Positions 25,711-64,000 of a DNA stretch of 64,000 nucleotides are shown here, piece after piece. How positions within the stretch are numbered: position 1 is the stretch's first letter; every line of letters begins with the position of its first letter. A program made the translations under genes and the position numbers. The notes beneath the pieces are model-generated. The model was not told the DNA's origin, ran no database searches, and was given only the letters and a program-made list of their open reading frames with translations. The DNA is from Rubrobacter aplysinae (GTDB lineage: Bacteria; Actinomycetota; Rubrobacteria; Rubrobacterales; Rubrobacteraceae), in the NCBI RefSeq assembly GCF_001029505.1, contig NZ_LEKH01000007.1, positions 62,001-126,000 of the forward strand. The letters are read 5' to 3'.

Positions 25711-25869
25711 AATCGATAATAAATTTTTCCTGCAAATCGGGAGATTTTGTCGGCTTTTCGCTGTCTCCTTTGTTTATGTTGTGTTTCCTGTTTGTATGTA
25801 TTGTCAACAGGAGCAGTTTTCGAATAAGTCCTGGGTACAGACGTCACTCGGGTGGGGGGAGGTACACAC
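25711..25869 (+). other. Probable replication origin core (AT-rich segment)
   Basis: AT-rich DNA (AATCGATAATAAATTTTT onward) lies directly after the last iteron and before rep, the usual position of the unwinding element. TTGTCAACA at 25801 is a weak match to a DnaA box (two mismatches from TTATCCACA). The initiator gene begins at the end of this stretch. Confidence 0.65.
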
Positions 25870-27432
25870 GTGAGCTTCAAGAAGGACGGCAGAGATAAGG
25901 GTGATCATCTTCGTTCCGGTGAGAGCAAGGATCAGAAGACTCTTTTCGACACCTTCAGTCTCCAGCTGGATCCACAAGACCTTGTACCTGTCTTCGCGGA
26001 AGGCAACTTCGAAGAGCATCCCCTGTTCCGCATGAGTTCTCAGGAGCGCACCGTTCGAGCCTACAGCTACGAATGGGCGTATAACGCTGAAGACGGGTTA
26101 CTGCTAAGAAAGAGATGGACCGTAGTCCCGTCTGGACAGTACGGCGCGCCCGGGCCGGCCGACCAGGATGTGTTTGTCGCTGTTATGGAACTTGTAGCCA
26201 GGCGTGGCGGATTGCCAGAGAGTGGCGAGATCGAGTTCTCCCTAAACGAATTGCTTAAAGTACTCCGCAAGTCTCGGGGAGGTAAGTCTTATGAGGCGTT
26301 AAAGGAATCCCTGCTCCGCATAGCGTTCACCGGTATAGAGAGCCACAATTCCTTCTACTCCGCCTCTATGAAAAGCTACATAGAGGATACCTTCCGGATA
26401 TGGGATGTCAGGTTCGCAGACTACGAGCCTTCCGGGGGTACGAGCACCAGCCGCCACACGTTGAAGTTCCATGACGTGTTCGTCAACAACTACTTCGCCC
26501 ATTACTTGAAGAACTTGGATACTAATCTCTACTGGTCCCTGAAATCCCCTATAGCCAAACGTCTGTACAGGCTGATAGACCAGAAAAGAGGTCAGGGTAG
26601 GTTCTGGGGGCAAGAGTTTTTCGAGCTTGCGCGCCAGATACCTCTCACCGGCTCATACAAGTACTCCTCGAAGATAAAGGAGAAGTTGAAGTCTCCGCAC
26701 GTAGAACTTGAGCGTGTGGGGTTTCTCCAATCCGTAAGCTATCAGGGCGGCCGGGTGGTGTATGAGGTCACGGAGGAGTACTCGCGTCAGAGAGTGGTGC
26801 GGGAGAGCTACCGTAGCAGTCCTGAGCATATCTTCGCGGTTGAACGACTAATCTCCGAAAACGTTCGTGGAGATGTTGCCCAGTCCTTGGTCGAGGAATA
26901 CGGCGTCGAGCACTGCCTGTACTATGCAGAAGCGCTCGTCGTGCAGCAGAATCTGTCAAACCCTGCCGGCTGGCTGATAGAGGCCATACGCAAGGGCTAT
27001 GCCCTAGTCGATCGCGGGGGTGAGAATTCGACAACCCAAGTCATTGGTGAAGACCCAGAACAGGTCAGTAGCTTGGATAGTGGCGAAGCGGTTGTGGACG
27101 AAGGTGGTTATGCGACTACTCGTGGTAGTTTGCCGGACACCGACCCGGAGGCGCTGGAGGTTTGGGAGAAGGTCCTTGAAGATGTTTCAGAGGAGATCAA
27201 TGCTCCCTCCCTGCGAGTCTGGTTCGAAGGCACGGTCCCGGTAGCGTTATCTGCGGAAACCCTGACAATTTCCGTGCCGAACGGTTTTGCTAGGGACTAC
27301 ATCGAAGAACGGTTCAAGGACCTCCTCGAAGCAGCCCTCACGAACCACCTCTCCCCCACCTCAGGCCTGGAGATCGTGGTCGGGGTAGAGGATCCTACAC
27401 ATAATACAGATAAACGAGGAGACGCCGGATGA
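25870..27432 (+). CDS. rep: Plasmid replication initiator (Rep) with a DnaA-domain-I-like C-terminus
   Basis: 520 residues from GTG at 25870, which follows GGGAGG at proper spacing; a GTG at 25852 lacks a site. The first 330 residues form the double winged-helix initiator expected to bind the iterons (WTVVPSGQYGAPGPADQDVF, a Lys-rich segment, SPIAKRLYRLIDQKRG). A linker follows, then residues about 430-500 read like DnaA domain I (LEVWEKVLEDVSEEI, LRVWFEGTVPV, TLTISVPNGFARDYIEERF). In DnaA this domain contacts DnaB helicase and DnaA itself, so the fusion may load the helicase directly. Next gene overlaps by ATGA. Confidence 0.9.
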   Translation: MSFKKDGRDKGDHLRSGESKDQKTLFDTFSLQLDPQDLVPVFAEGNFEEHPLFRMSSQERTVRAYSYEWAYNAEDGLLLRKRWTVVPSGQYGAPGPADQDVFVAVMELVARRGGLPESGEIEFSLNELLKVLRKSRGGKSYEALKESLLRIAFTGIESHNSFYSASMKSYIEDTFRIWDVRFADYEPSGGTSTSRHTLKFHDVFVNNYFAHYLKNLDTNLYWSLKSPIAKRLYRLIDQKRGQGRFWGQEFFELARQIPLTGSYKYSSKIKEKLKSPHVELERVGFLQSVSYQGGRVVYEVTEEYSRQRVVRESYRSSPEHIFAVERLISENVRGDVAQSLVEEYGVEHCLYYAEALVVQQNLSNPAGWLIEAIRKGYALVDRGGENSTTQVIGEDPEQVSSLDSGEAVVDEGGYATTRGSLPDTDPEALEVWEKVLEDVSEEINAPSLRVWFEGTVPVALSAETLTISVPNGFARDYIEERFKDLLEAALTNHLSPTSGLEIVVGVEDPTHNTDKRGDAG

Positions 27433-47225: not shown

Positions 47226-48113
47226 TTACGAAGCGGCGAGCTCGTCCATCTCGTCCACCGCCGGGGTGCTACGCACGTAGCCCTGCCGGGCGTCGAAAAG
47301 AGAGCGGCAGTTGAGGACTGTACCTTCGGTAAGAAGTGTGGTGAGGTAGGTGAGCACGACGTTCGCGGCCACGAGATTGGTGGTCATTCTCTGTGGCGCG
47401 CTCACCGTGAGCTCGTTGCACGGGATCTCGTCGGGATGCCTATCGTCGGCGTCTTCTACCTCTATTAGAGTGGGGAACGTGTCAGCCGGGAACGGCAGTA
47501 CTGTCTCGCCGTCCTTTCGCGCCCCGCACACCACCTGACCGTCCCAGCCGGACTCTCTAAGGGAAATCCTCTCCTGCTTGCCTATCTGCGCATCCGGCAC
47601 GGGCATCGGTACCGCCCCGTTGCCGGAGTCCAGGTAGACGATGTTCTCCGCCCCATACAGTTTCTCGTGTAGTAGCCGCCGGGTAGCAGCATTGTCTACG
47701 CAGCCGACTACCACCGCCCCGTCGCAGACCAGGTTCGCTATATCCGTGCTCTCGTCGAGGTAGTTGGGGTAGGCGTTCACCGCCATACCGTACGCCGCGC
47801 CGTAGCGCTCGCTGAGTACCAGCGCCTTGTTCCTCCCGGCGTCCTGGGGAAGATAGCCTTGCCTCAAGATGTTCCTATCCGAGACCTCCCCGCCTTCTAC
47901 CAATAGGACCTCCGGTATCTGCTGTGGCAGAGAGCCGCCAGCTAGCGCGGTGGTCTCCCGGTTTGCCTGCCGGATGCTATAGAGCAGTCTTAGCACCGAC
48001 TGGGTGACGTAGGCTCCCGTACCGCCGACGCCGAAGATCACGACACGGGTCCTGGCCGGATTCATCACCTTTACCGGCTTCGCCTTGTTGGTCGTGGTAG
48101 TTCTTACGCTCAC
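47226..48113 (-). CDS. PRTRC-type ThiF/E1-like adenylyltransferase
   Basis: 295 residues. VVIFGVGGTGAYVTQSVLRL is the nucleotide-binding glycine motif of E1/ThiF enzymes; LVEGGEVSDRNILRQGYLPQ, KALVLSERY and VVVGCVDNAATRRLL follow in the E1 order. These enzymes adenylate the C-terminus of a ubiquitin-like protein. It matches the ThiF member of PRTRC cassettes in size and motifs. Its GTG or ATG start overlaps the JAB gene, so both are translated together. The cysteines at VVCGA and IPCNEL could be the catalytic thiol; which one is not clear. Confidence 0.85.
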   Translation of the reverse strand: MSVRTTTTNKAKPVKVMNPARTRVVIFGVGGTGAYVTQSVLRLLYSIRQANRETTALAGGSLPQQIPEVLLVEGGEVSDRNILRQGYLPQDAGRNKALVLSERYGAAYGMAVNAYPNYLDESTDIANLVCDGAVVVGCVDNAATRRLLHEKLYGAENIVYLDSGNGAVPMPVPDAQIGKQERISLRESGWDGQVVCGARKDGETVLPFPADTFPTLIEVEDADDRHPDEIPCNELTVSAPQRMTTNLVAANVVLTYLTTLLTEGTVLNCRSLFDARQGYVRSTPAVDEMDELAAS

Positions 48114-49288
48114 AGCAGCCCTCCCGCCTCGGGCCTCCTCACGGTGGCCGCGACCACCGAGGGGTCGTCGAAGAGGTCCTCAGCGAGCAGCTCTCTGAAC
48201 TGGCCGCCGCAAGAGTAGCGGAAGCGGGCCTCGGGGAGCTTGTCCGTGATGCGCCCGACCACGCCGTAGACTCCGGTCGGCTTCTCGCTGTGATCGTCCT
48301 TCGCAGAGAAGAATGAGTGCATCTTGTGGTGGGAGTGGATCTCGGCGTAGAGCACGAAGTTGTCGTCGTCTGGCAGCGGCTGGTACTCGACCTCTCCGGC
48401 ACTCGCCCGCTTCTGGTTCCAGACCAGGCAAAATGTCTCGTTCCGGCGGTCGTAGACGATGTCTATGAGGGCCTCCGTATCGGGCCTTTCGGCGAAGATG
48501 CGTACCACCTCTGCCAGCAGTGTTGCCGGGGCCTTCGGGACACTCGGGTAGTAGCCCTCCGCGAGAGTGAGGCCGCTCTCCAGCCGGACCACGTAGGTGC
48601 CCGAGAGGTTGTTTCTCACTTCGTACACGCCATCGGCGCACAAGAGCCGGTAGACCGGCGGGCGAGGATTGTCCTCGCCCGGGTCAGTACCCGGAGGCAG
48701 CGTGTTCACCTGGAGGGTGCTCCTGGCCCCCGAGCCCTTCTTCTGAGCCTCGGGTATGGGGACCAGCCGGCCCTTGTTCTGGTCGTAGCGCAAGGTGAAC
48801 CGGCCCTTTTCGATCTCCGGGAAGTCGTCCGCCACCCACTCGAAGATCTTCGACTCGCTCATCTCCTCTTCGAGTATCTTCGAGTGCCCGCTATACCGGA
48901 ATTCAGTACCAGCCGGATACACCTTCTGAGAGCCGGTCTGCTTCGCGGTCTCTTGCCGCTTCTTTTTCTCGGCCTCCTCGGCCTCCTTCTTTTTCTGCTC
49001 CTCGCTCTTCATACCCTCCATCTCGTCTGAGCCGAACAGTGTAGAGGGCGAGGTGGTTCCAGCCGGAGGGTCCTGGGACTCTTCCTGAGTCTGCTGCGAG
49101 CCTTGCTCAGAGTTCTGCTGCTCGGGCTCCCGGCGGTTCTGCTCGCGCTGATCCTGGTCTTGCTGCTCCTGATGCTGGCCGGCGGTGTTCTGCTGGTCCT
49201 GATTCTGCTCGTGGTTTTGCTCCTGGTCGTGCTGTTCCTGGTTTTGCTGTTGGTGCTGCTCTTGGTTGTGCTCGCTATGCTCGCTCAT
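48110..49288 (-). CDS. PRTRC-A-like JAB/MPN peptidase with fused ubiquitin-like domain
   Basis: 392 residues. The first 115 are Gln/Glu/His/Asn-rich. Residues about 125-185 (EFRYSGHSKILEEEMSESKI, FEWVADDFPEIEKGRFTLRY) resemble PRTRC protein C, a beta-grasp/ubiquitin-like protein usually encoded by its own gene. The C-terminal half carries the JAMM zinc-peptidase site EIHSHHKMHSFFSAKDDH (about 315-333), as in PRTRC protein A. A JAB enzyme would release or trim the ubiquitin-like tail. Having both in one chain suggests self-processing. It overlaps the ThiF gene and follows the PRTRC-B-like gene by two bases. Confidence 0.82.
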   Translation of the reverse strand: MSEHSEHNQEQHQQQNQEQHDQEQNHEQNQDQQNTAGQHQEQQDQDQREQNRREPEQQNSEQGSQQTQEESQDPPAGTTSPSTLFGSDEMEGMKSEEQKKKEAEEAEKKKRQETAKQTGSQKVYPAGTEFRYSGHSKILEEEMSESKIFEWVADDFPEIEKGRFTLRYDQNKGRLVPIPEAQKKGSGARSTLQVNTLPPGTDPGEDNPRPPVYRLLCADGVYEVRNNLSGTYVVRLESGLTLAEGYYPSVPKAPATLLAEVVRIFAERPDTEALIDIVYDRRNETFCLVWNQKRASAGEVEYQPLPDDDNFVLYAEIHSHHKMHSFFSAKDDHSEKPTGVYGVVGRITDKLPEARFRYSCGGQFRELLAEDLFDDPSVVAATVRRPEAGGLL

Positions 49289-49290
49289 CT

Positions 49291-50232
49291 CTACGCTCCT
49301 CTCTGTTGGTCGTGCAGTCCCTGTACGGTCATCTCCGTGGGGATCAGGTACTCCTCGGGCAAGCCCTCGCTTTCAAGGTGCTCCAAAAACTCGCGGTAGC
49401 CCTTCTGGGGACCGTTATGAGAGAAGCCCCGGCCGTACAAGTCCATGTTGTTCGGCAGCTCCAAAAATGCCCTCACAGCCTTGCTCGGCACCTCCTTTAG
49501 AGACATCTGAATGCGGTCCATCGTCGGCCAGCAGACTCCCTCTAGCGCGCCCCGGTATGCGTGGTAGACATTCGATGCCGGGTAACGGTAGAGGGGGGTG
49601 TCCGGTCCTGGCGGTGTCCAGCGTTTCGTCGCAGAGCTCTCGCCTTCGGAGCCCTCTTGCTCCTGCGGGCCTTCATCGTTAGAGAGGCCCGCAGGAGAAG
49701 CCTCGCTCTCCTCTAACTGTCCCATCCTCGGGTAGCCTCTTTCGGGGGAGCACAGCGTCAGCGAGAACCGCGAGACCGTCCGGCTGGCCTCCTCGTACAC
49801 GATGCTCCAGACGAGGTAGGGGAGAAGCACCTCGAAGGTGACCGTATAGCCTTCTCTATTGCTCTCCAGGCAGAACAGGTAGGTGTCCGGCTCGGTGTAT
49901 CCGGTAACCGTGTAGGAGCGGCCCGCCGGAGACTCGTTCACGTCTACGAGCAGCGTGTTATCCGGCACGACGGGTAGCTTAGTGGTCCTGGTACTCTCGT
50001 CGGAGAGCGACTCGACCACCGAGGAGTCGTCGAGGGCTCCGAGGAGATCAGGGTAGGTTATGGACTTGCTCGCCACGACTCCGTGCGAGTTGGTGAACTG
50101 CACCATCGGCAGCCTGTCGTCGCGGATCAGTACGACCACACTTCCGGGCAGCTCGCCACCAGAGGCGCGCCGGATCTCGGTAGCCAGCCCGTCCTTCAAA
50201 AGGGCGAGCTCGTTCTCGGGGGCGTCCATCAA
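49291..50232 (-). CDS. PRTRC-B-like protein
   Basis: 313 residues. Beta-rich beginning (GSVVVLIRDDRLPMVQFTNS, YPDLLGALDD), a linker of Glu/Ser, and PLYRYPASNVYHAYRGALEG, then VCWPTM, matching the conserved middle of PRTRC protein B (YPASNVY...G.iCW). This family is present in every such cassette and has been suggested to be E2-like; I rate that as inference. The single Cys in GVCWPT could be the thiol carrier. The gene overlaps the upstream 293-residue gene by four bases. Confidence 0.75.
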   Translation of the reverse strand: MMDAPENELALLKDGLATEIRRASGGELPGSVVVLIRDDRLPMVQFTNSHGVVASKSITYPDLLGALDDSSVVESLSDESTRTTKLPVVPDNTLLVDVNESPAGRSYTVTGYTEPDTYLFCLESNREGYTVTFEVLLPYLVWSIVYEEASRTVSRFSLTLCSPERGYPRMGQLEESEASPAGLSNDEGPQEQEGSEGESSATKRWTPPGPDTPLYRYPASNVYHAYRGALEGVCWPTMDRIQMSLKEVPSKAVRAFLELPNNMDLYGRGFSHNGPQKGYREFLEHLESEGLPEEYLIPTEMTVQGLHDQQRGA

Positions 50233-51110
50233 CGTATCCTTTCGTCTAATTCGTCAAGGGATTCACGTCTCACCTCGCGTTTCATGACGCTCCAGGCGGC
50301 CAGGAAGCGGGCGAAGAGCACGTCCTGGAACATCGAGCGCAGGTCGAAATACTCGAAGCCTATGAGAAGGATCACCGCGCTCCGGGGCGGGTCGGCCTGC
50401 CGGAGCATCCGGTCGGCGGCCGTACCGGTCTTCCAGTGATAAAGCCTCACCGTCTCGCCTTCGCCGCATCCGGCAAGCATGCAGCGGGTGAACCGCTCGA
50501 CCCCCTCGGGGTCCCCATTTATCTCTACGCCGATAACGTCCTCGAAGTCGCCGGTAGGCTCGCCCTTTACGCGGTAGCCCAGAGAGCCGAGCCTGCCGGT
50601 GCCGATGCTCGCCACGCCCTCGCCGGGGTATTCATGGCGGCGTTGCGTGCCTCCGTTACCTCTGGTACGGGACTGTTCGATGTGCTCCCCTATAGAGCGC
50701 GGGGAGACGGGGGCTATGGTCTCCGCCTCTACGGGGCCTCCATCGAGGGCCGCGATGTCCGAGAGGATCTCGTCTTCTTCCATGGCGACGGCGGCGTGGT
50801 AGACGGCGACACCGAGCCGGTCTTCACCCGGTTCCTGGTCATGGGACCCGAACAGGGTGTGGACCACGGCCTTTAACTGGGAGTCGAACACTTCCATGAG
50901 GTCGCCACCCATGTAGGTCGGGTCTCCGTAGCCCCAGCCCGTCTCGTCGAAGCGGGCGCGCTCTGCGCTGCCGTCTGGTCCGACCACACGCAGGAAGTCC
51001 CTGGCGTAGCGGATGTCCTGGAGGCCGTCGAAGAGGTTGTGGTGCTCCTCCTCGCCCATCAAGAGCGGCTGCTGCTCGCGCAAGCGCCTCACTTGCCTCA
51101 AGGTAGTCAC
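50229..51110 (-). CDS. Protein of unknown function heading the PRTRC-like operon
   Basis: 293 residues, ATG start, overlapping the PRTRC-B-like gene. Helical first half (GLQDIRYARDFLRVVGPDG, DLMEVFDSQLKAVVHTLFG), a Gly/Arg linker near 150, and a second half with VILLIGFEYFDLRSMFQDVL. No membrane helix or metal site. Perhaps a cassette-specific partner taking the place of a standard PRTRC member (D, E or F), none of which I could recognise. Confidence 0.6.
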   Translation of the reverse strand: MTTLRQVRRLREQQPLLMGEEEHHNLFDGLQDIRYARDFLRVVGPDGSAERARFDETGWGYGDPTYMGGDLMEVFDSQLKAVVHTLFGSHDQEPGEDRLGVAVYHAAVAMEEDEILSDIAALDGGPVEAETIAPVSPRSIGEHIEQSRTRGNGGTQRRHEYPGEGVASIGTGRLGSLGYRVKGEPTGDFEDVIGVEINGDPEGVERFTRCMLAGCGEGETVRLYHWKTGTAADRMLRQADPPRSAVILLIGFEYFDLRSMFQDVLFARFLAAWSVMKREVRRESLDELDERIR

Positions 51111-51178: not shown

Positions 51179-51709
51179 CTAGATAAACTCCGGAGCCACG
51201 GATCGCCCTATCGCTGCTGGAGCCTTCGATAGCGCGCTCCGGGCTACGGATGGTCCCTCGTTGCCGAGCTCGGTGAGTGCCAGCCTAAGCTCCGGGCATA
51301 GTCCTTCCTGGCGGTCCTCCCCTACGTTAGCCATGTAGTAGTCGTCGGCGTAGGTGTATGCCGCCTCCAGAAGATCCTCGGCGGCTCGTAGCGCCTCGTC
51401 TGTAATGGCGGCGAGCTGCTCCGATACCTCGGCCTCCTCACCGACTCCGGGTGTGGCCCGGCCAAAGCTGGCGTCCGGGGGTCCTGCGAGCCCCATGATG
51501 AGGTCCACCCCGGCCAGATACCGGGCGAGTCTCTCGTGGTCGAGCCCGGGCATTGACTCAAGCCGCTCCATGAAAGCGGTGAAATCCACGGTCAGCCGCC
51601 GGGCGGGGGAGAGGGGACCGTCAACCACCCGCCTCAAACACGTGTTTGAAGAAGGTGACGTGCTTGGTATCGGTTCTGCCTCTCCGGAAATCTCTTGCGA
51701 CGTCTGCAT
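51179..51709 (-). CDS. Helical protein of unknown function
   Basis: 176 residues from ATG 51709 with GGGAGG at good spacing (a GTG two codons earlier is too close). Mostly helical: LARYLAGVDLIMGLAGPPD, AITDEALRAAEDLLEAAYTY. Ends with an Ala/Ser/Pro tail. No motif recognised. Confidence 0.55.
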   Translation of the reverse strand: MQTSQEISGEAEPIPSTSPSSNTCLRRVVDGPLSPARRLTVDFTAFMERLESMPGLDHERLARYLAGVDLIMGLAGPPDASFGRATPGVGEEAEVSEQLAAITDEALRAAEDLLEAAYTYADDYYMANVGEDRQEGLCPELRLALTELGNEGPSVARSALSKAPAAIGRSVAPEFI

Positions 51710-51801
51710 GCTCACCTCCCTTGCTTACTCTCTTGATCAAGGTCTCGGGTAGCGTCCGGGCGCTGTCGGTCTTTACCGAGCGCTCGGACGACCCGGACGC
51801 T

Positions 51802-52041: not shown

Positions 52042-52743
52042 CTAGTCCTCGTCCGTGCGCATCAGCGTAAGGACCGGGTCTTCGTCGTCTCCCGGTCCGA
52101 TCACGGCCTTCACCTCGTACAGTTTCTTGTCTCCTACGGGCATGTGAAGCGTGTAGGCGAGTGCCGGCAGGCCGCTCTTGTGCGCGGCGAGGTGGCCGGT
52201 AACTAGCACGTCCCACAGCCGCCCCTTGTGAGATTCCCCGCCATCAAGTAGAGGGCTAGATAGGTCCGAGATGTCGGCGTCGAGGGCGGCGGTGATCGCG
52301 GTGTCCACCTTGAAACCGGCTTCTCTCGCGGTGCCGGTGACGTCGACGAGCACGCCGTCTTGCTTCGCCTCTTCGCGGGTGTAGACGTGGATCGGATCCC
52401 CGAAAAACTCGCTCACTCCATTCATTCGATTCGCCTGCATACCTGCCTCCTCCATATAGACTCTCTCGAGGGCTTCGGTAAGCCTGCGGCTGAACCTCCG
52501 CGCCTCGTCCGGGTGCTCGAAACGGGCCGCGGGGCTGCGCTCCATGCCCGGTACCTGTGCCGCTACCAGCGCGCGGCCGCCGATCAACGGCGCTTCGGTA
52601 ATGGCGACTATCTCCGATAGCTCACACTCGCCGTCGCCAAGGCGATCGAAGGTGTAGAGGCGGACCGGACTGATCCTGGCCCTCAGTTCCGAGTCGTCCT
52701 TACCGCCATAGAAGTACTGCTCTTGTCTATGCCCGCGGATCAT
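52042..52743 (-). CDS. DUF6573-like protein
   Basis: 233 residues. VYTREEAKQDGVLVDVTGTA, REAGFKVDTAITAALDADI, GRLWDVLVTGHLAAHKSG and LYEVKAVIGPGDDEDPVLTL are the sequence words I associate with DUF6573 proteins of actinobacterial and other plasmids. The first 95 residues are extra and acidic. Its ATG overlaps the upstream small gene. It ends with TAG, and the same frame continues into the small protein at 51802. Confidence 0.7.
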   Translation of the reverse strand: MIRGHRQEQYFYGGKDDSELRARISPVRLYTFDRLGDGECELSEIVAITEAPLIGGRALVAAQVPGMERSPAARFEHPDEARRFSRRLTEALERVYMEEAGMQANRMNGVSEFFGDPIHVYTREEAKQDGVLVDVTGTAREAGFKVDTAITAALDADISDLSSPLLDGGESHKGRLWDVLVTGHLAAHKSGLPALAYTLHMPVGDKKLYEVKAVIGPGDDEDPVLTLMRTDED

Positions 52744-55936: not shown

Positions 55937-58900
55937 TTAGAACAGCGCCGGCTGCTCGTAGGAGTGGGGGTTCTCTATGTGCCCGGCGTGTGAGAACCCG
56001 ACCAGCTCGGGAGTTCGCCGTTTTCTCTCGGGCTCCGGTGTCTCCGTAGTCCCCGGGGTCGCGGATGGTTGAGGAGCGAGTGGGGCTATAGCCCGCCACG
56101 CGGCCTCGACGTCCTCTTCTGCCACGGTCTCTCCCTCTGGATCGGCCTCGCCGTCCTCGCCGAGAGCCCGGATGCCGCGCTCTTGCATCTCCTTTAGGAC
56201 CTTCGACCAGTCCGTGGCCTGCTCGGGCTGGACCTGGAGCTCGCCGTCGAACGCGAGGTCCGAGGCTGCCCCTTTGTTCGACAGGAGCTCGTACTTACGC
56301 TCGGCAAGAGACCCTTTCGGGATCACCGAGTACACCGAGACCGGCTTTTTCGAGGTCAGCCGGTGTACGCGGGCTATGAACTGGTCCATCACCGAGAAGG
56401 AGTAGGGAAGGCCGTGGACTATGACGGTCGAGGATACGTCGAGGTTGTGGCCGAGCTTGACGGCCGCCACGCCGGCGCACAACACCTGGGCGTCGCCCTC
56501 TACGAACTGCTCGATCTCACGGCTACGCTTACGGGGGTTCTTGGTCGAGATCGCGCCGTTTGCGGCTTCCTCGGTGATATGTACGGCCTTTATACCCTTC
56601 TCCTGCAAGCGGTCGGCGATCCACTTGCCGGTCATGATCAGGTCTGAGCCCACAAGCACCTTCTCGCCGCGCTCGACGTGCTCCATTACTAGCTCGAGGA
56701 CCTTCAGGGTGGCCGGGGTAAAGTTCGAGAGCTCACCGAGCTCCTCTCGCGCCTCGGGCCACTCTCTGGAGGGTTCGTCCGAAGCCGGAAGTGTGGCCGC
56801 GGTCTCGAGGCGCCAGAGCTGGCCGAGAGCGGCGGCCCACTTATCCACCAGGCCCTTCTCGACCATCGGATGATTCGGGAACTTCCACTCGAAGTAAGAA
56901 CCGAACCGGGAGAGCCAGAACCGATTAGCCCGCTTCTGGGCCGCGCCCATCGGCACCCTGACGGGATGGTAGGTCCGCTCGACCAGGGGCTCGCCGGTCT
57001 GCTCCTTGCGGCACCGGCTTATGGCGGGCTGTGCCAGGCGCCAGAACTGGGAGACGTTGGCAACCTGGGGCAGTATCTTGCGCCGCTTGCGCTGGTTCGC
57101 CTCGCCGTCTTCGGCGCGGCCCATCATGTGCTCGGTGACGCAGAAGTCGTCCTCGAACTTTGCCTTACCGCCGTGGTAGTCGTACGGGAATGCAGGGGTT
57201 GCATTACCGAGGCATATGTAGAGCCCCCAAAATGCGTCGGCCAGAAAGTTTGATAGCGGGGTGCCGGTTGCGCCATAGATGTGGGGGCCACGAGCCAGAG
57301 CGCGCAGTGACTTGCTCCTCAGCGAGTCGTCGCCGCGGACCTCGGAGATCTCGTCTATGCACCTGACACCCTGCTTGAAGGCGGTCGTCAGGTGAGTGTA
57401 GGCAGCCTTCCGATAGACGGAGCGGTGGACGTAGCCGCAGCCGGGGTTATAGCCGTAGCTGTCACCCCTGCACACCTCACCGTCCCAGCCGGAATCCGTG
57501 TCCGCGCCGCAAGAGGGGCAAGCGTCGGCGGTCGTCGCGGTGTTCGCTCCACCAAGGAGCCCCGGGATGGTAGTAGGACTGCCCTTGGAGAGCTTGTAGC
57601 GGTACAGGCGGCCCCCCAGGGCCGCCCGGTGGTCCACGTACTCCTCCGGGAGTACCTCCTTCTTGCGGCCCACGATTGACAGGCATTCGTAGTAGGTTAT
57701 GAACCAGCCCTCCTCGCCGGCCTCCATCCGCTTCGCCACTTCGCGGGCCTTGGCCGGGGTGCGGATCTCCTCTAGCTCGCCCCCGGCATACCGCTCGGCG
57801 TCGGCCTTGTAGCGGGCCAGGACGTTCTCCCGCACCTCTTCCGGGGTGTGGACCCTGGAGCCGAAGAACTTCTTGTACTCCCGGCCCCACTGCCTGAGAA
57901 GATCCTGCGGGGCGACAAAGAGCACCTGGTTCTTCGCGCCGAGCCTGACCGTGGCCTCGGCGAGCACCATGAGCTGCAAGGACTTTCCGAGTCCCTGCTC
58001 ATGTGCCAGGACTCCCCGGCGCTTGGTGAGTAGCCGGGAGAGGTGGTCTATCTGGAACTCTTTGAGCGTGAAGCCGTTCTCGTCGGCTATCTCTTCGAGT
58101 AGGCGGCGGTACTCACCGACCTCCTCGGGGAACTTCTCGGCGACCGAGCCGGGGTCGGGGATCTCGAAGTGCTCGATGAGGTAGGCGATGTTCTCCGGCC
58201 CCTCGTCGAAGGACTGCTGCTCTGAGCCCCTGCCGATCTTCACCTCCAGAAGCCGACGCTCGGTCTGGAACTGCCTGAGCTCCGGCACGCCGTCCTTGTC
58301 CTCGACCACACGGCTCTCGGTCTGCTGGTCGATCTTGGAGTTGGTGGAGAGCGCGTAGTTCTCGCCGGCCTCGAAGCCGCGCTCGGGGTCGGTCTTCTTG
58401 CAGCGGATGAAGTCGAGGTCGGTAAGCCAGCCAAGGCGCATCTGGGGCTTTAAGGTGAAAAGCGGCGTGGAGACCTTTTCAGCCTCGGCGAGCGCCTTAT
58501 CCGCGGCCTCTTCCAGAGCCGGGTCCAGGGTAAGCGCCTCCTCGTCCCGTAGCTCGCGCAGTTGGCGGAGGGTCCTCGGGTTCTGGCCGAAGTAGGAGAC
58601 GTGCTGGCCTCCGAGGAGCTCGATCTCGCGCACGGTGCGCGAGCCTTTCGTGTTCGCCAGGGCGAGCTTTGAGAACGCCGAGATGCCAACCGAGACCTTC
58701 GAGCCCTTCAGGGTAAGGTCGTAACGGTTGGCACGGGCTTTGCTCCGTGCCGTTTTCTCCCGGCTCTGGTACTCGCGGCGCACCGCCCTAAAGCCGGACG
58801 CAAGCGCCTCCTCATTCGGGGAGTAGGGCATGACGTGCGGTGTGTGCCGCCGGCGCGCGGCCACGACCTCTTCGGCTAGCTCCGGCAGCTCCTCACGTCG

Positions 58901-59719
58901 GGCCGAGAGCCGCGCCGGCCTCTCGCCGGGGGCGCGGTTAGTGTTGGCCGGGCTCACGTAGAAGGCGATGGAGGAGGGAAGCTGCACTCCCTCAAACAGC
59001 GGGCCTTCGACATCGACCACGGCGTAGACGCCCGCCGCCACCTCGCGGGAGAGGACAGCTGTTGCGAGCCGGTCGGTGCCGCAGACCATCGCCCCCTGCC
59101 CGAAACGCTCCATCAGGTCCAGCGACCACAGAAAGGCGAGCACGGTGGAGTTGATGTTCGACTTGCTCTTGCCAGCGTCGCGCCAGTCCAGTCCAAAGGG
59201 CGGGTTCAGAGCGAGTGCCGGGAAGCGGGTGCCACCTGCCCGGAGCATGGGCACGACCTTCTGGGAGTCGCCTTGGATCGCGGTGTACGGATACTCGGGA
59301 GCGCCAGCATGGTCGCCGTCTATCTCTATGCCGTAGCGGGCCGCTTCGTTAAAGGCGGCCAAAAGAGAGCCGGATCCGGCCGTGGGATCGAGCACGGGAG
59401 TCCTCTCGCCAAGGACCTCGGCTATTAGCCGTGAGGCCTGTATCGGCGCAAAATACTGCTGAAGACCTATGAAGGCGGCCTTGTTGCCGCGGGCATTGGT
59501 GAGCACCCGGCGGCTCGAAGAGAGCGCCTCATCGGTGGCCGCGCCGCCGCGCAGCTTCCCGCGCTTGGCGTCGCTACGGCTAGCGGTTCTTGACTGTGGC
59601 ACGGGTGTACCAACCTCATCTCCGTCCTCGTCCGGGATAGCCGGAGCATCGAGGATCGGGGGCGTGGTCAGGGTCCCGGTCGCCGGGGTGGACGTTCTAC
59701 TGAGGTGATCCACGGCCAC
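55937..59719 (-). CDS. DNA adenine methyltransferase-SNF2 helicase fusion (DarB-like)
   Basis: 1260 residues from GTG 59719, which follows AAGGAGG; an in-frame 59803 start lacks a site. The N-terminal half is an N6-adenine methyltransferase with motif I VLDPTAGSGSLLAAF (about 110) and motif IV LALNPPFGLDW (about 173). The second half is a SNF2-type helicase with P-loop LAHEQGLGKSLQLM (about 575), IDEISEVRG, GATGTPLSNF and a complete C-terminal lobe (VHGLPYSFSVMDQFIARVHR). A four-cysteine insert (CPSCGADTDSGW, then CRGD and CGY, about 735) may bind zinc. P1 DarB and other plasmid methylase-helicases protect incoming DNA from restriction. Confidence 0.88.
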   Translation of the reverse strand: MAVDHLSRTSTPATGTLTTPPILDAPAIPDEDGDEVGTPVPQSRTASRSDAKRGKLRGGAATDEALSSSRRVLTNARGNKAAFIGLQQYFAPIQASRLIAEVLGERTPVLDPTAGSGSLLAAFNEAARYGIEIDGDHAGAPEYPYTAIQGDSQKVVPMLRAGGTRFPALALNPPFGLDWRDAGKSKSNINSTVLAFLWSLDLMERFGQGAMVCGTDRLATAVLSREVAAGVYAVVDVEGPLFEGVQLPSSIAFYVSPANTNRAPGERPARLSARREELPELAEEVVAARRRHTPHVMPYSPNEEALASGFRAVRREYQSREKTARSKARANRYDLTLKGSKVSVGISAFSKLALANTKGSRTVREIELLGGQHVSYFGQNPRTLRQLRELRDEEALTLDPALEEAADKALAEAEKVSTPLFTLKPQMRLGWLTDLDFIRCKKTDPERGFEAGENYALSTNSKIDQQTESRVVEDKDGVPELRQFQTERRLLEVKIGRGSEQQSFDEGPENIAYLIEHFEIPDPGSVAEKFPEEVGEYRRLLEEIADENGFTLKEFQIDHLSRLLTKRRGVLAHEQGLGKSLQLMVLAEATVRLGAKNQVLFVAPQDLLRQWGREYKKFFGSRVHTPEEVRENVLARYKADAERYAGGELEEIRTPAKAREVAKRMEAGEEGWFITYYECLSIVGRKKEVLPEEYVDHRAALGGRLYRYKLSKGSPTTIPGLLGGANTATTADACPSCGADTDSGWDGEVCRGDSYGYNPGCGYVHRSVYRKAAYTHLTTAFKQGVRCIDEISEVRGDDSLRSKSLRALARGPHIYGATGTPLSNFLADAFWGLYICLGNATPAFPYDYHGGKAKFEDDFCVTEHMMGRAEDGEANQRKRRKILPQVANVSQFWRLAQPAISRCRKEQTGEPLVERTYHPVRVPMGAAQKRANRFWLSRFGSYFEWKFPNHPMVEKGLVDKWAAALGQLWRLETAATLPASDEPSREWPEAREELGELSNFTPATLKVLELVMEHVERGEKVLVGSDLIMTGKWIADRLQEKGIKAVHITEEAANGAISTKNPRKRSREIEQFVEGDAQVLCAGVAAVKLGHNLDVSSTVIVHGLPYSFSVMDQFIARVHRLTSKKPVSVYSVIPKGSLAERKYELLSNKGAASDLAFDGELQVQPEQATDWSKVLKEMQERGIRALGEDGEADPEGETVAEEDVEAAWRAIAPLAPQPSATPGTTETPEPERKRRTPELVGFSHAGHIENPHSYEQPALF

Positions 59720-59768
59720 GACACCTCCTTCTATGGTTCGGTTTGATAACTCCCTATACACGCAGAGC

Positions 59769-59809
59769 CGCCTCGTGCGGCCCGCATCCATTCGGGGCCG
59801 CACGAGGCG
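59769..59809 (-). terminator. 15-bp perfect hairpin before the methylase-helicase gene
   Basis: CGCCTCGTGCGGCCC (59769-59783) pairs with GGGCCGCACGAGGCG (59795-59809), an 11-base loop. It lies between the end of the 59845 gene and the ribosome site of the big gene. One of the longest stems in the window. Confidence 0.5.
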
Positions 59810-61903: not shown

Positions 61904-62716
61904 TCAGGCCGCCTCACACAGACCTGGCTCTGCCCCGGCCTGCTCCGGGCTCTGATGTCGTGGAGCTTCCTCCGCTGCCTCCTCGGACGGCTCGCCAGCG
62001 CTGGCCAGCTGTCCCCGGACGGCGGGTTCGGAGTAGAAGGCGAGTACGAGGCTCTTGGCGTCTGCCTCATAAGAGGCGTTGACTGGTCTCCAGCCCCCGG
62101 TACCGGTGCTCACGAACCGCTTCAAGCACCACGTGGTCTGACTTACCTCACCGGCTGCAGAGCGGACACCGATAACCACCCTGGTAGTGGGTGAGTCGGC
62201 CGCGCTCGCGTAACCCTGGCCGCATAGACCTTCATTAGCGCGGTAACGGCGCTCGGCAAGCTTCAAGCTACACACCGGATTGCCTTCGTCGTCTTCCCTT
62301 ACGGTAGCTCCGAGCATCCTAAGCAGGTTCCGCCTGCCGAGCAGCCATCTCACCCAGAAACGACTTAGGAGACGCTGTAGAGCGAGCACGCTGCTTTCGG
62401 CCCGGCCTATCACGCCCCGCTGCTCGGTAACTTTTTTTCGGGCTTGGTTCAAGAACACCCGCGCCAGCCAGGCGAAGAGTAGGGCGATCAGGGAGCGGAG
62501 CAGCTCCGTAGCGGCGGCCTTCAGGCGCGCTCGGGCACGGGCGGTGGTCTTTGCGAGGTGGTCCACCTCCGAAGGGTCTTCGAGGGCCACTCTCATGGCT
62601 AGCTCTGTAGCCTCTTCCTCGTCTCTGAACTCGCGCCGGGAGGAGGCTACGAGGTCCCTGGGGTCCGGCTCTACCTTCGGGTTGTAGATGGTGATCTTGG
62701 TCTGATTGGCGGGCAC
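61904..62716 (-). CDS. Possible membrane-associated protein of unknown function
   Basis: 270 residues from GTG 62716, with GGAGGAG before it. The longer frame to 62854 would run across a large hairpin. Residues about 70-110 form an Ala/Arg-rich helix and one hydrophobic segment (SLIALLFAWLARVFL). The end has RTRVV-type beta words (SPTTRVVIGVRSAAGEVSQT) and an acidic tail. Unknown role. A strong leader hairpin (62735-62772) suggests control of its translation. Confidence 0.5.
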   Translation of the reverse strand: MPANQTKITIYNPKVEPDPRDLVASSRREFRDEEEATELAMRVALEDPSEVDHLAKTTARARARLKAAATELLRSLIALLFAWLARVFLNQARKKVTEQRGVIGRAESSVLALQRLLSRFWVRWLLGRRNLLRMLGATVREDDEGNPVCSLKLAERRYRANEGLCGQGYASAADSPTTRVVIGVRSAAGEVSQTTWCLKRFVSTGTGGWRPVNASYEADAKSLVLAFYSEPAVRGQLASAGEPSEEAAEEAPRHQSPEQAGAEPGLCEAA

Positions 62717-62734
62717 CGCACTCTCCTCCGGGTA

Positions 62735-62772
62735 GCCTTCTGCTGCTTGCACCCCTGAAAGCAGCAGAAGGC
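62735..62772 (-). promoter_or_regulatory. 14-bp perfect leader hairpin
   Basis: GCCTTCTGCTGCTT (62735-62748) pairs with AAGCAGCAGAAGGC (62759-62772), a 10-base loop. It ends a few bases before the GGAGGAG site of the gene starting at 62716. Candidate translational control or processing element. Confidence 0.55.
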
Positions 62773-62858
62773 GGCATATCTTACGTAGGCTGGCCTGGTG
62801 GAGATCAGCTACTCTCTTACGTGACTTTATGTAACTGTATGCAGCTGTATGCAACTAG

Positions 62859-64000
62859 CTAGCCTGCCCGGGTACGCTCGCCTCTATCTTCAGCGGTGAT
62901 TCTGCCGGCATTGGTGGAAGGCTTTGAGACTTCGAGCCCGGCGCCCGAGTCCACCCTGGCGGGGGCTGTCTGGCGCGTATCGGGTAGCAGCCGGCCGAGC
63001 TCGTCTATCCGCTCGACCACGAATGAGAAGCCGCGCCTCTCATCCTGCTCGACGACTCCTTCGAGGAGAAAAGAGGCGGCACCGTAGAGATTGTGACCGT
63101 ACCTCTGGTAGGTATCACTGAATATGGTGGCCTGCAAGAGCCCCGTCTCGTCTTCTATAAGCAGGAAGTAGACGGGCTTGCCGCTCTTGGTGGGCGGGCT
63201 CTGTAGACACTCCAAGATCCCGGCGGCCCGGACGCGGGAGCCGTGGGGCATCTCCCGTACCTTCCTCGCCGGCGTTACCCGGAGCTCCTTCAGAGCCTGG
63301 CGGTACCTTCGTAGAGGGTGTTCCACGACGTCCAGCGAGAGTACCTCGCGCTGCATCCTCGCCTCCTCGCTGGGCGGGAATGGTAGGCTCGCTATTCGTC
63401 CGGCACCCGGACGTTCGTACCACCAGCCATCTTCCACGGAGCTTCCGAGCCCGGTGATCACGGCTGCGGATAGCTCTCTCTGATTATCTCCGCACCGTTT
63501 CCTGGGGAGTCTTTCAGCTTCCTCAAGAAGCTCCCTGCGGCCGCCAGTCTTCTCACGACTCAGCGCGTCGAGGAAGCCGCCTCTTATAAGGTTCGCCAGC
63601 GCCCGGCTGTCTACCGGGGTGCGATGGTAGAGATCGGCTGCTGAGGAGAAAGGGCGCTCCTCCCGCTCCGCGAGTATCCCGTCGATACTCCGCTGTGAGA
63701 GCCCCTTGCAGTAGGAGAGCCCGACGCGAACGGCGGTTCCGTTTTCCGCAGAGTGCTCCACGGTACACCCCTCCCCGGATAGATGTATGTCGGGCGGGAG
63801 TATGGAGATCTCTATCCTCCGGGCCTCGTTGAGGAGCACCCTCGGGGAGTAGAATCCCATGGGCTGTGAATTGAGAAGTGCCGTGAAGTAGGGGGCGGGA
63901 TACTCGCACCGCATGTAGGCCGAGGCGTAGGAGAGCTCGGCGAAGGAGGCGGCATGGGCGGCCGAGAAGCCGTAGGCGGCGAAGCCAATCATCCAGTCCA
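62859..64000 (-). CDS. DnaE-type DNA polymerase III alpha subunit, C-terminal part (5' end outside window)
   Basis: About 380 visible residues; the frame is open to the right edge. MIGFAAYGFSAAHAASFAEL, then YASAYMRCEYPAPYFTALLN and FYSPRVLLNEARR are the standard C-terminal part of the DnaE finger/palm end, particularly the DnaE2/ImuC subgroup. Further on come the helix-hairpin part and an OB-fold (VRAAGILECLQSPPTKSGKP). The tail after about residue 340 is disordered. It may be the polymerase for mutagenic repair or plasmid replication; the neighbours needed to decide (ImuA, ImuB) are not visible. Confidence 0.85.
   Translation of the reverse strand, partial: DWMIGFAAYGFSAAHAASFAELSYASAYMRCEYPAPYFTALLNSQPMGFYSPRVLLNEARRIEISILPPDIHLSGEGCTVEHSAENGTAVRVGLSYCKGLSQRSIDGILAEREERPFSSAADLYHRTPVDSRALANLIRGGFLDALSREKTGGRRELLEEAERLPRKRCGDNQRELSAAVITGLGSSVEDGWWYERPGAGRIASLPFPPSEEARMQREVLSLDVVEHPLRRYRQALKELRVTPARKVREMPHGSRVRAAGILECLQSPPTKSGKPVYFLLIEDETGLLQATIFSDTYQRYGHNLYGAASFLLEGVVEQDERRGFSFVVERIDELGRLLPDTRQTAPARVDSGAGLEVSKPSTNAGRITAEDRGERTRAG

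Follow-up and report, generated by a model that had tools for sequence, protein, structure and literature searches.

Gene content of the locus

The window, that is, the whole stretch of 64,000 nucleotides analysed, spans bases 62001–126000 of contig C7 in a genome of 3.19 Mb whose nearest relatives are Rubrobacter. The window is plasmid-like, as shown by its T4SS-type ATPases, its ArdC protein and an initiator of the RepA type that has a DnaA_N domain. Four consecutive genes occupy positions 47226–51110 of the reverse strand, with overlaps of 4 bp or gaps of ~2 bp; unless stated otherwise, the window features given below lie on this strand. The gene at 47226–48113 encodes an E1-like protein of the PRTRC_ThiF type, with a G-x-G-G-x-G loop and a conserved Cys in IPCNELTVSAPQ. 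It matched TIGR03736 (PRTRC_ThiF) at 1.8e-23 and 83 bits, below the cut-off of 144.75, and the ThiF profile aligned with canonical ThiF at 100% (1.6e-38). The fused modifier-peptidase gene (48110–49288) follows. The gene at 49291–50232 encodes an E2 candidate resembling PRTRC-B and Prok-E2_D, with a conserved Cys in EGVCWPT. Taken alone, this protein matched weakly (TIGR03737, 0.14; Prok-E2_D, 0.18) and, like the ubiquitin-like domain described below, lay under the curated family cut-offs. By profile, it reached 96.6% with the B proteins of Bacillota, which in turn reached 98.8% with canonical B; the direct comparison gave 80.1%. The cluster of an E1/ThiF-like enzyme, a PRTRC-B-like protein and a JAB peptidase named in the original prediction was borne out by the TIGR03736 match, a TIGR03735 match of the peptidase and, for B, the profile comparison.

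The gene at 50229–51110 sits in the PRTRC-F position, has no family match and is kept in Rubrobacter cassettes. Next to it, the gene in the PRTRC-E position (51179–51715) has relatives in Rubrobacter and a C-terminus reading -EFI. Profile comparison detected no homology of either gene to canonical PRTRC-E or PRTRC-F, and no protein in the genome matched these two families. For the PRTRC ParB, there was only a sub-cut-off match on another contig, of a kind that most control genomes also give. Measured against the PRTRC reference (TIGR03734–03742, and the type 6d operon of Iyer et al. 2006, PMC1779556), the locus therefore has ThiF, PRTRC-A, PRTRC-B with its Cys, and PRTRC-C as a fused domain with an internal KG. 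The proposed likeness to PRTRC systems thus held for the E1, the E2-like protein, the JAB peptidase and the ubiquitin-like modifier, and not for ParB, E and F. Since the latter three were searched for and not found, we file the locus as a divergent PRTRC-like (Iyer type 6d) branch and not as a strict PRTRC system.

Several other features of these loci were recorded. The C-terminus of the E-position gene (-EFI, -DFI or -FF) is conserved in most lineages and is reminiscent of SSB-type tails (the window and loci L009, L011, L024–L027, L034, L035, L037, L039, L040 and L042). A DUF6573 protein lies near the cassette both in the window (52042–52743) and on a Brevibacillus plasmid (L036, 15402–15821). 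At the window edge (61904–63992), a DnaE-like C-terminal region, with HHH_6 and OB domains in 62859–63992, apparently continues in a second ORF. The RepA-type initiator (25852–27432, forward strand) has QKTLF at residue 28, and a 1288 aa SNF2/helicase-like protein (55937–59803) has a terminal, clamp-binding-like QPALF at residue 1284.

A modifier and a JAMM peptidase in one chain

The 392 aa product of the fused gene starts with a Gln/Glu-rich tail, disordered as judged from its sequence (residues 1–120; 48929–49288). The tail is followed by a ubiquitin-like β-grasp domain, recognised with AF2, VIA-align and hhalign (residues 121–185; 48734–48928), and by the JAB/JAMM domain (residues 252–366; 48191–48535). 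No family model matched the ubiquitin-like domain in direct Pfam, NCBIfam and PHROGs scans, and intermediates were needed. Prok_Ub matched a fused Alicyclobacillus homologue (5.7e-4) and, weakly, the free B. licheniformis homologue (0.028), and ThiS matched the free B. velezensis homologue (4.4e-4). In hhalign, the profile of 18 fused C domains aligned with canonical PRTRC-C at 82.5% (1e-5; reversed control 0.1%) and with the C proteins of split loci at 99.6%. The original prediction had called for a model of residues 120–200; AF2 folded residues 121–185 as β-β-α-β-β with pLDDT 88. VIA-align ranked ubiquitin first (Z 4.8, 53 residues, 2.4 Å), and the top matches, which included ISG15, CsUb and MoaD, fell within Z 4.4–4.8, a moderate range below 5, with GB1-type folds close behind. 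Foldseek on the model of this domain alone gave no significant match. The domain thus has the β-β-α-β-β fold and the C-terminal Gly tail of ubiquitin-like β-grasp proteins, at a Z below 5. No independent PRTRC-C gene, which would have spoken against the predicted arrangement, was found in the genome, using a search model that is insensitive to this divergent branch. The C-A fusion in the window protein is real: as had been proposed, the PRTRC-C part is not separate and precedes the JAB domain behind the Gln/Glu-rich tail.

The peptidase part matched TIGR03735 (PRTRC_A) at 3.7e-13 over residues 252–366, below the curated cut-off, and the 392 aa protein matched Pfam Prok-JAB at 3e-4. The zinc site of JAMM/MPN+ enzymes, E + HxH(x7)S(x2)D, is intact as E272, H318xH320 and S328xxD331, and these residues are invariant across eight diverse homologues. 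Foldseek matched the JAB part to a bacterial Ubl-deubiquitinase (8tyx_B, 2.5e-4) and to CsRpn11 (6fju). The model of residues 121–392 is confident in parts only, and the linker has pLDDT below 50.

The β-grasp domain ends at Lys184-Gly185 (48734–48739), the predicted processing site, which equals the C-terminus of free PRTRC-C. At this position, all 18 fusions have Gly and 17 of the 18 have Lys; the residues directly after it vary. The free C proteins of B. licheniformis (GAKKG-stop), Cytobacillus and Metabacillus (both GGAKG-stop) and B. velezensis all end in KG-stop. Further C endings are GTKG-stop in Piscinibacter (a canonical C) and GPKG-stop in Pseudanabaena. In the split loci of Cytobacillus and Metabacillus, the C stop overlaps the start of the JAB (A) gene by 4 bp, and the free Cytobacillus C aligned with the fused proteins to its last residue, at up to 46%. 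Other C proteins extend past KG, with KGAL in Rossellomorea AcN35-11, KGQ in a viral contig (canonical C) and KGAYAQI in the canonical C of C. metallidurans. Because some canonical C proteins run past KG in this way (KGQ, KGAYAQI), processing past KG may be general. The C protein of Nostoc (L045, 5090–5527) has KKG and 78 further residues, which form a domain of no recognised kind; BLASTP gave no support for this extension being a fusion to the neighbouring gene.

As the junction is conserved and free C proteins end there, it is simplest to infer that processing takes place at KG and that the fused JAMM domain is the enzyme responsible. A precedent is CsRpn11, a JAMM enzyme that cuts its ubiquitin precursor to the mature form after Gly-Gly (PMC6043591). 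The opposite possibility is that the fusion is never cut, and the ubiquitin-like part serves the JAMM enzyme as an internal domain for its regulation or targeting, the enzyme acting on conjugates formed with a different modifier or on some other substrate. We consider this unlikely. UBL domains within deubiquitinases are well known, the fusion is widespread, and the genome has no separate modifier gene that we found, all of which agree with an uncut chain; such a chain, however, leaves unexplained the terminal Gly retained in 18/18 fusions, the split loci that end exactly at KG, and the adjoining, dedicated E1 and E2-like genes. The Lys-Gly kept at the junction, together with the split loci ending there, favours self-release over permanent tethering. 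On this sequence evidence, the fused protein is best read as a pro-modifier attached to the enzyme that matures it.

The partner genes also bear on what a released modifier would do. It might be a sulfur carrier like ThiS, MoaD or TtuB, with ThiF making a Gly thiocarboxylate for thiolation of DNA, RNA or a metabolite. E1-JAB-Ubl sets do transfer sulfur elsewhere (PMC1779556), and a PAPS-reductase-family gene lies near the cassettes of some relatives. Nevertheless, ThiF showed no rhodanese domain, the genome's single gene of the PAPS-reductase family is on a different contig from the window, and the conserved E2-like partner with its Cys points to conjugation, so that sulfur transfer appears quite improbable here.

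Distribution of the fusion and a clamp-binding-like peptide in its tail

By tblastn, homologues were found on plasmids of Rubrobacter marinus, Alicyclobacillus, Paenibacillus, Thermobacillus, Alkalihalophilus, Sporosarcina, Lysinibacillus, Brevibacillus, Niallia, Cytobacillus, Terribacillus, Halobacillus and Rossellomorea. A ThiF tree with 28 rows placed 22 loci in the Gram-positive branch, and 17 of these carry the fusion. The fused or split state required four changes on this tree, in which a Cytobacillus/Metabacillus pair with adjacent, split genes is nested among fused loci (support 100/99); the simplest reading would be one gain followed by losses of the fusion. Canonical PRTRC loci (78 plasmid records matched) have C as a separate small gene among the matches listed, and no C-A fusion was present in the canonical proteobacterial loci examined. 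One relative occurs on viral contigs, where two genes encode C and A. Three plasmids keep a C protein with no JAB gene in the operon, which indicates that the peptidase is dispensable in some cases. The suggested survey for C-A fusions thus showed a common architecture of Gram-positive plasmids, neither a one-off nor a feature of the canonical loci examined. Among the same loci, the ThiF genes of P. lautus (L032, 9013–11864) and Rossellomorea (L026, 7657–11525) are split by a reverse-transcriptase gene of the group II intron type, and the Planococcus CA gene (L038, 7601–8741) has an in-frame stop in its tail and is annotated from a later start.

The tails otherwise cannot be aligned, yet all 25 contain [LI]F, and 16 of them contain Qxx[LIM]F, whereas 20,000 shufflings gave 0.31 on average and never more than 4. 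The motif was present in 15/22 tails and, among the remaining ORFs at these loci, in 9/328 (Fisher 2e-15); the motif-bearing loci are related, so the counts are not independent events. Its forms, QLSLF, QLNLF, QIDLF, QFDLF, QMDLF, QTDIF and QSSLF, match the β-clamp-binding consensus QL[S/D]LF or QxxLF (PMC12309361). The window copy departs from this consensus: it has PSTLF (residues 81–85; 49034–49048), a degenerate form of QxxLF lacking the Gln, of which L84-F85 is invariant in A2. The R. marinus tail has PEALF, also without Gln; QAGLF and QEQDLF occur at two further Rubrobacter loci. A plasmid 5′-3′ exonuclease near one fused cassette (L034, 603–1496) starts with QLSLF.

We also observed replisome genes beside the cassettes. 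In R. marinus, Alicyclobacillus, C. firmus, Niallia, Planococcus, Terribacillus, R. marisflavi and Halobacillus, dnaN is located upstream of the cassette; in Sporosarcina and Lysinibacillus, dnaX and delta-prime directly follow ThiF, and in Alkalihalophilus delta-prime is near ThiF. No plasmid dnaN was found in the genome of the window, its sole dnaN being on another contig (C13). QxxLF tails on cassettes that often adjoin dnaN or clamp-loader genes suggest a clamp-docked ubiquitin-like system. There is good reason to suppose clamp docking in the family, and for the window copy it is uncertain. Among the papers searched, none linked such cassettes, clamp-binding-like tails and dnaN neighbours, and the QxxLF peptide in the tails of this modifier-peptidase family is a new observation.

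Within Actinomycetota, the fusion was present in 4/396 genomes, all Rubrobacteraceae, which fits mobile spread. This patchy distribution, the location on mobile plasmids and the shared enzyme set would also suit an anti-phage defence of the Bil or CBASS Cap2/Cap3 kind, in which the tag goes onto a protein of an invading phage or an effector and not onto a replisome protein. PADLOC, however, gave no system and weak matches only, no nucleotidyltransferase partner was seen, and the replisome neighbours and the clamp-like motif point elsewhere; we regard a defence role as very unlikely.

Proposed mechanism and comparison with known systems

We give a probability of roughly 0.6 to the locus being a plasmid-borne, PRTRC-like (type 6d) conjugation cassette, whose modifier precursor is fused to its own JAMM maturase/deconjugase. 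From the observed domains, catalytic residues, conserved junction and enriched motif, we infer cleavage, conjugation, clamp binding and a target as follows. The JAMM domain would cut after Lys184-Gly185, in cis or in trans, to yield a modifier of ~185 residues (tail and β-grasp) ending in Gly. The ThiF-like E1 would then adenylate this terminal Gly, and the E2-like B protein, through its conserved Cys, would transfer the modifier to a target, from which the freed JAMM domain could strip it off again. In most relatives, the clamp-binding-like peptide of the tail may hold the modifier or its precursor at the plasmid replisome, the probable place of the targets. We propose tentatively that the modifier's own tail docks it on the sliding clamp and that the fused protease sets it free at the replisome.

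Many large plasmids carry PRTRC systems. Thanks to the junction, maturation can be tested directly, and the clamp-binding-like peptide, together with the dnaN and clamp-loader neighbours, offers the replisome as a first specific site of action. If the proposal is true, large plasmids would use a clamp-docked modifier to manage replication, and this modifier would parallel, in bacteria, the ubiquitin/SUMO signalling that takes place at PCNA.

In Bil and in CBASS Cap2/Cap3, the modifier is separate from the peptidase, unlike in the window protein. Bil (BilABCD) has a similar set of Ubl, E1, E2 and JAMM peptidase (PMC11354881), and CBASS Cap2/Cap3 appears analogous (PMC10097602); both differ from the window in their E1/E2 families and in having a known role in defence. 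PRTRC systems share with the window ThiF/E1, the E2-like B with its Cys, JAB A with an N-terminal extension, a small Ubl ending in Gly, the plasmid location and the gene order B-A-ThiF. In the window, by contrast, ParB, E and F are not detectable and C has a long tail and is fused to A, whereas the C of PRTRC is a small gene between E and F, and type 6d was described with a stand-alone Ubl (PMC1779556). A lambdoid TAPI-JAB fusion from one E. coli prophage also joins a Ubl and a JAB domain in one chain (PMC1779556, Table 1, row 5), in a tail-assembly context and without E1 or E2, unlike the window. The CsUb precursor and CsRpn11 of Caldiarchaeum, the latter also matched by Foldseek, agree with our reading in that the ubiquitin precursor is matured by a JAMM enzyme, which cuts behind the C-terminal Gly (PMC6043591); there, two separate genes and Gly-Gly are involved, whereas in the window one chain carries both partners and the junction is Lys-Gly.
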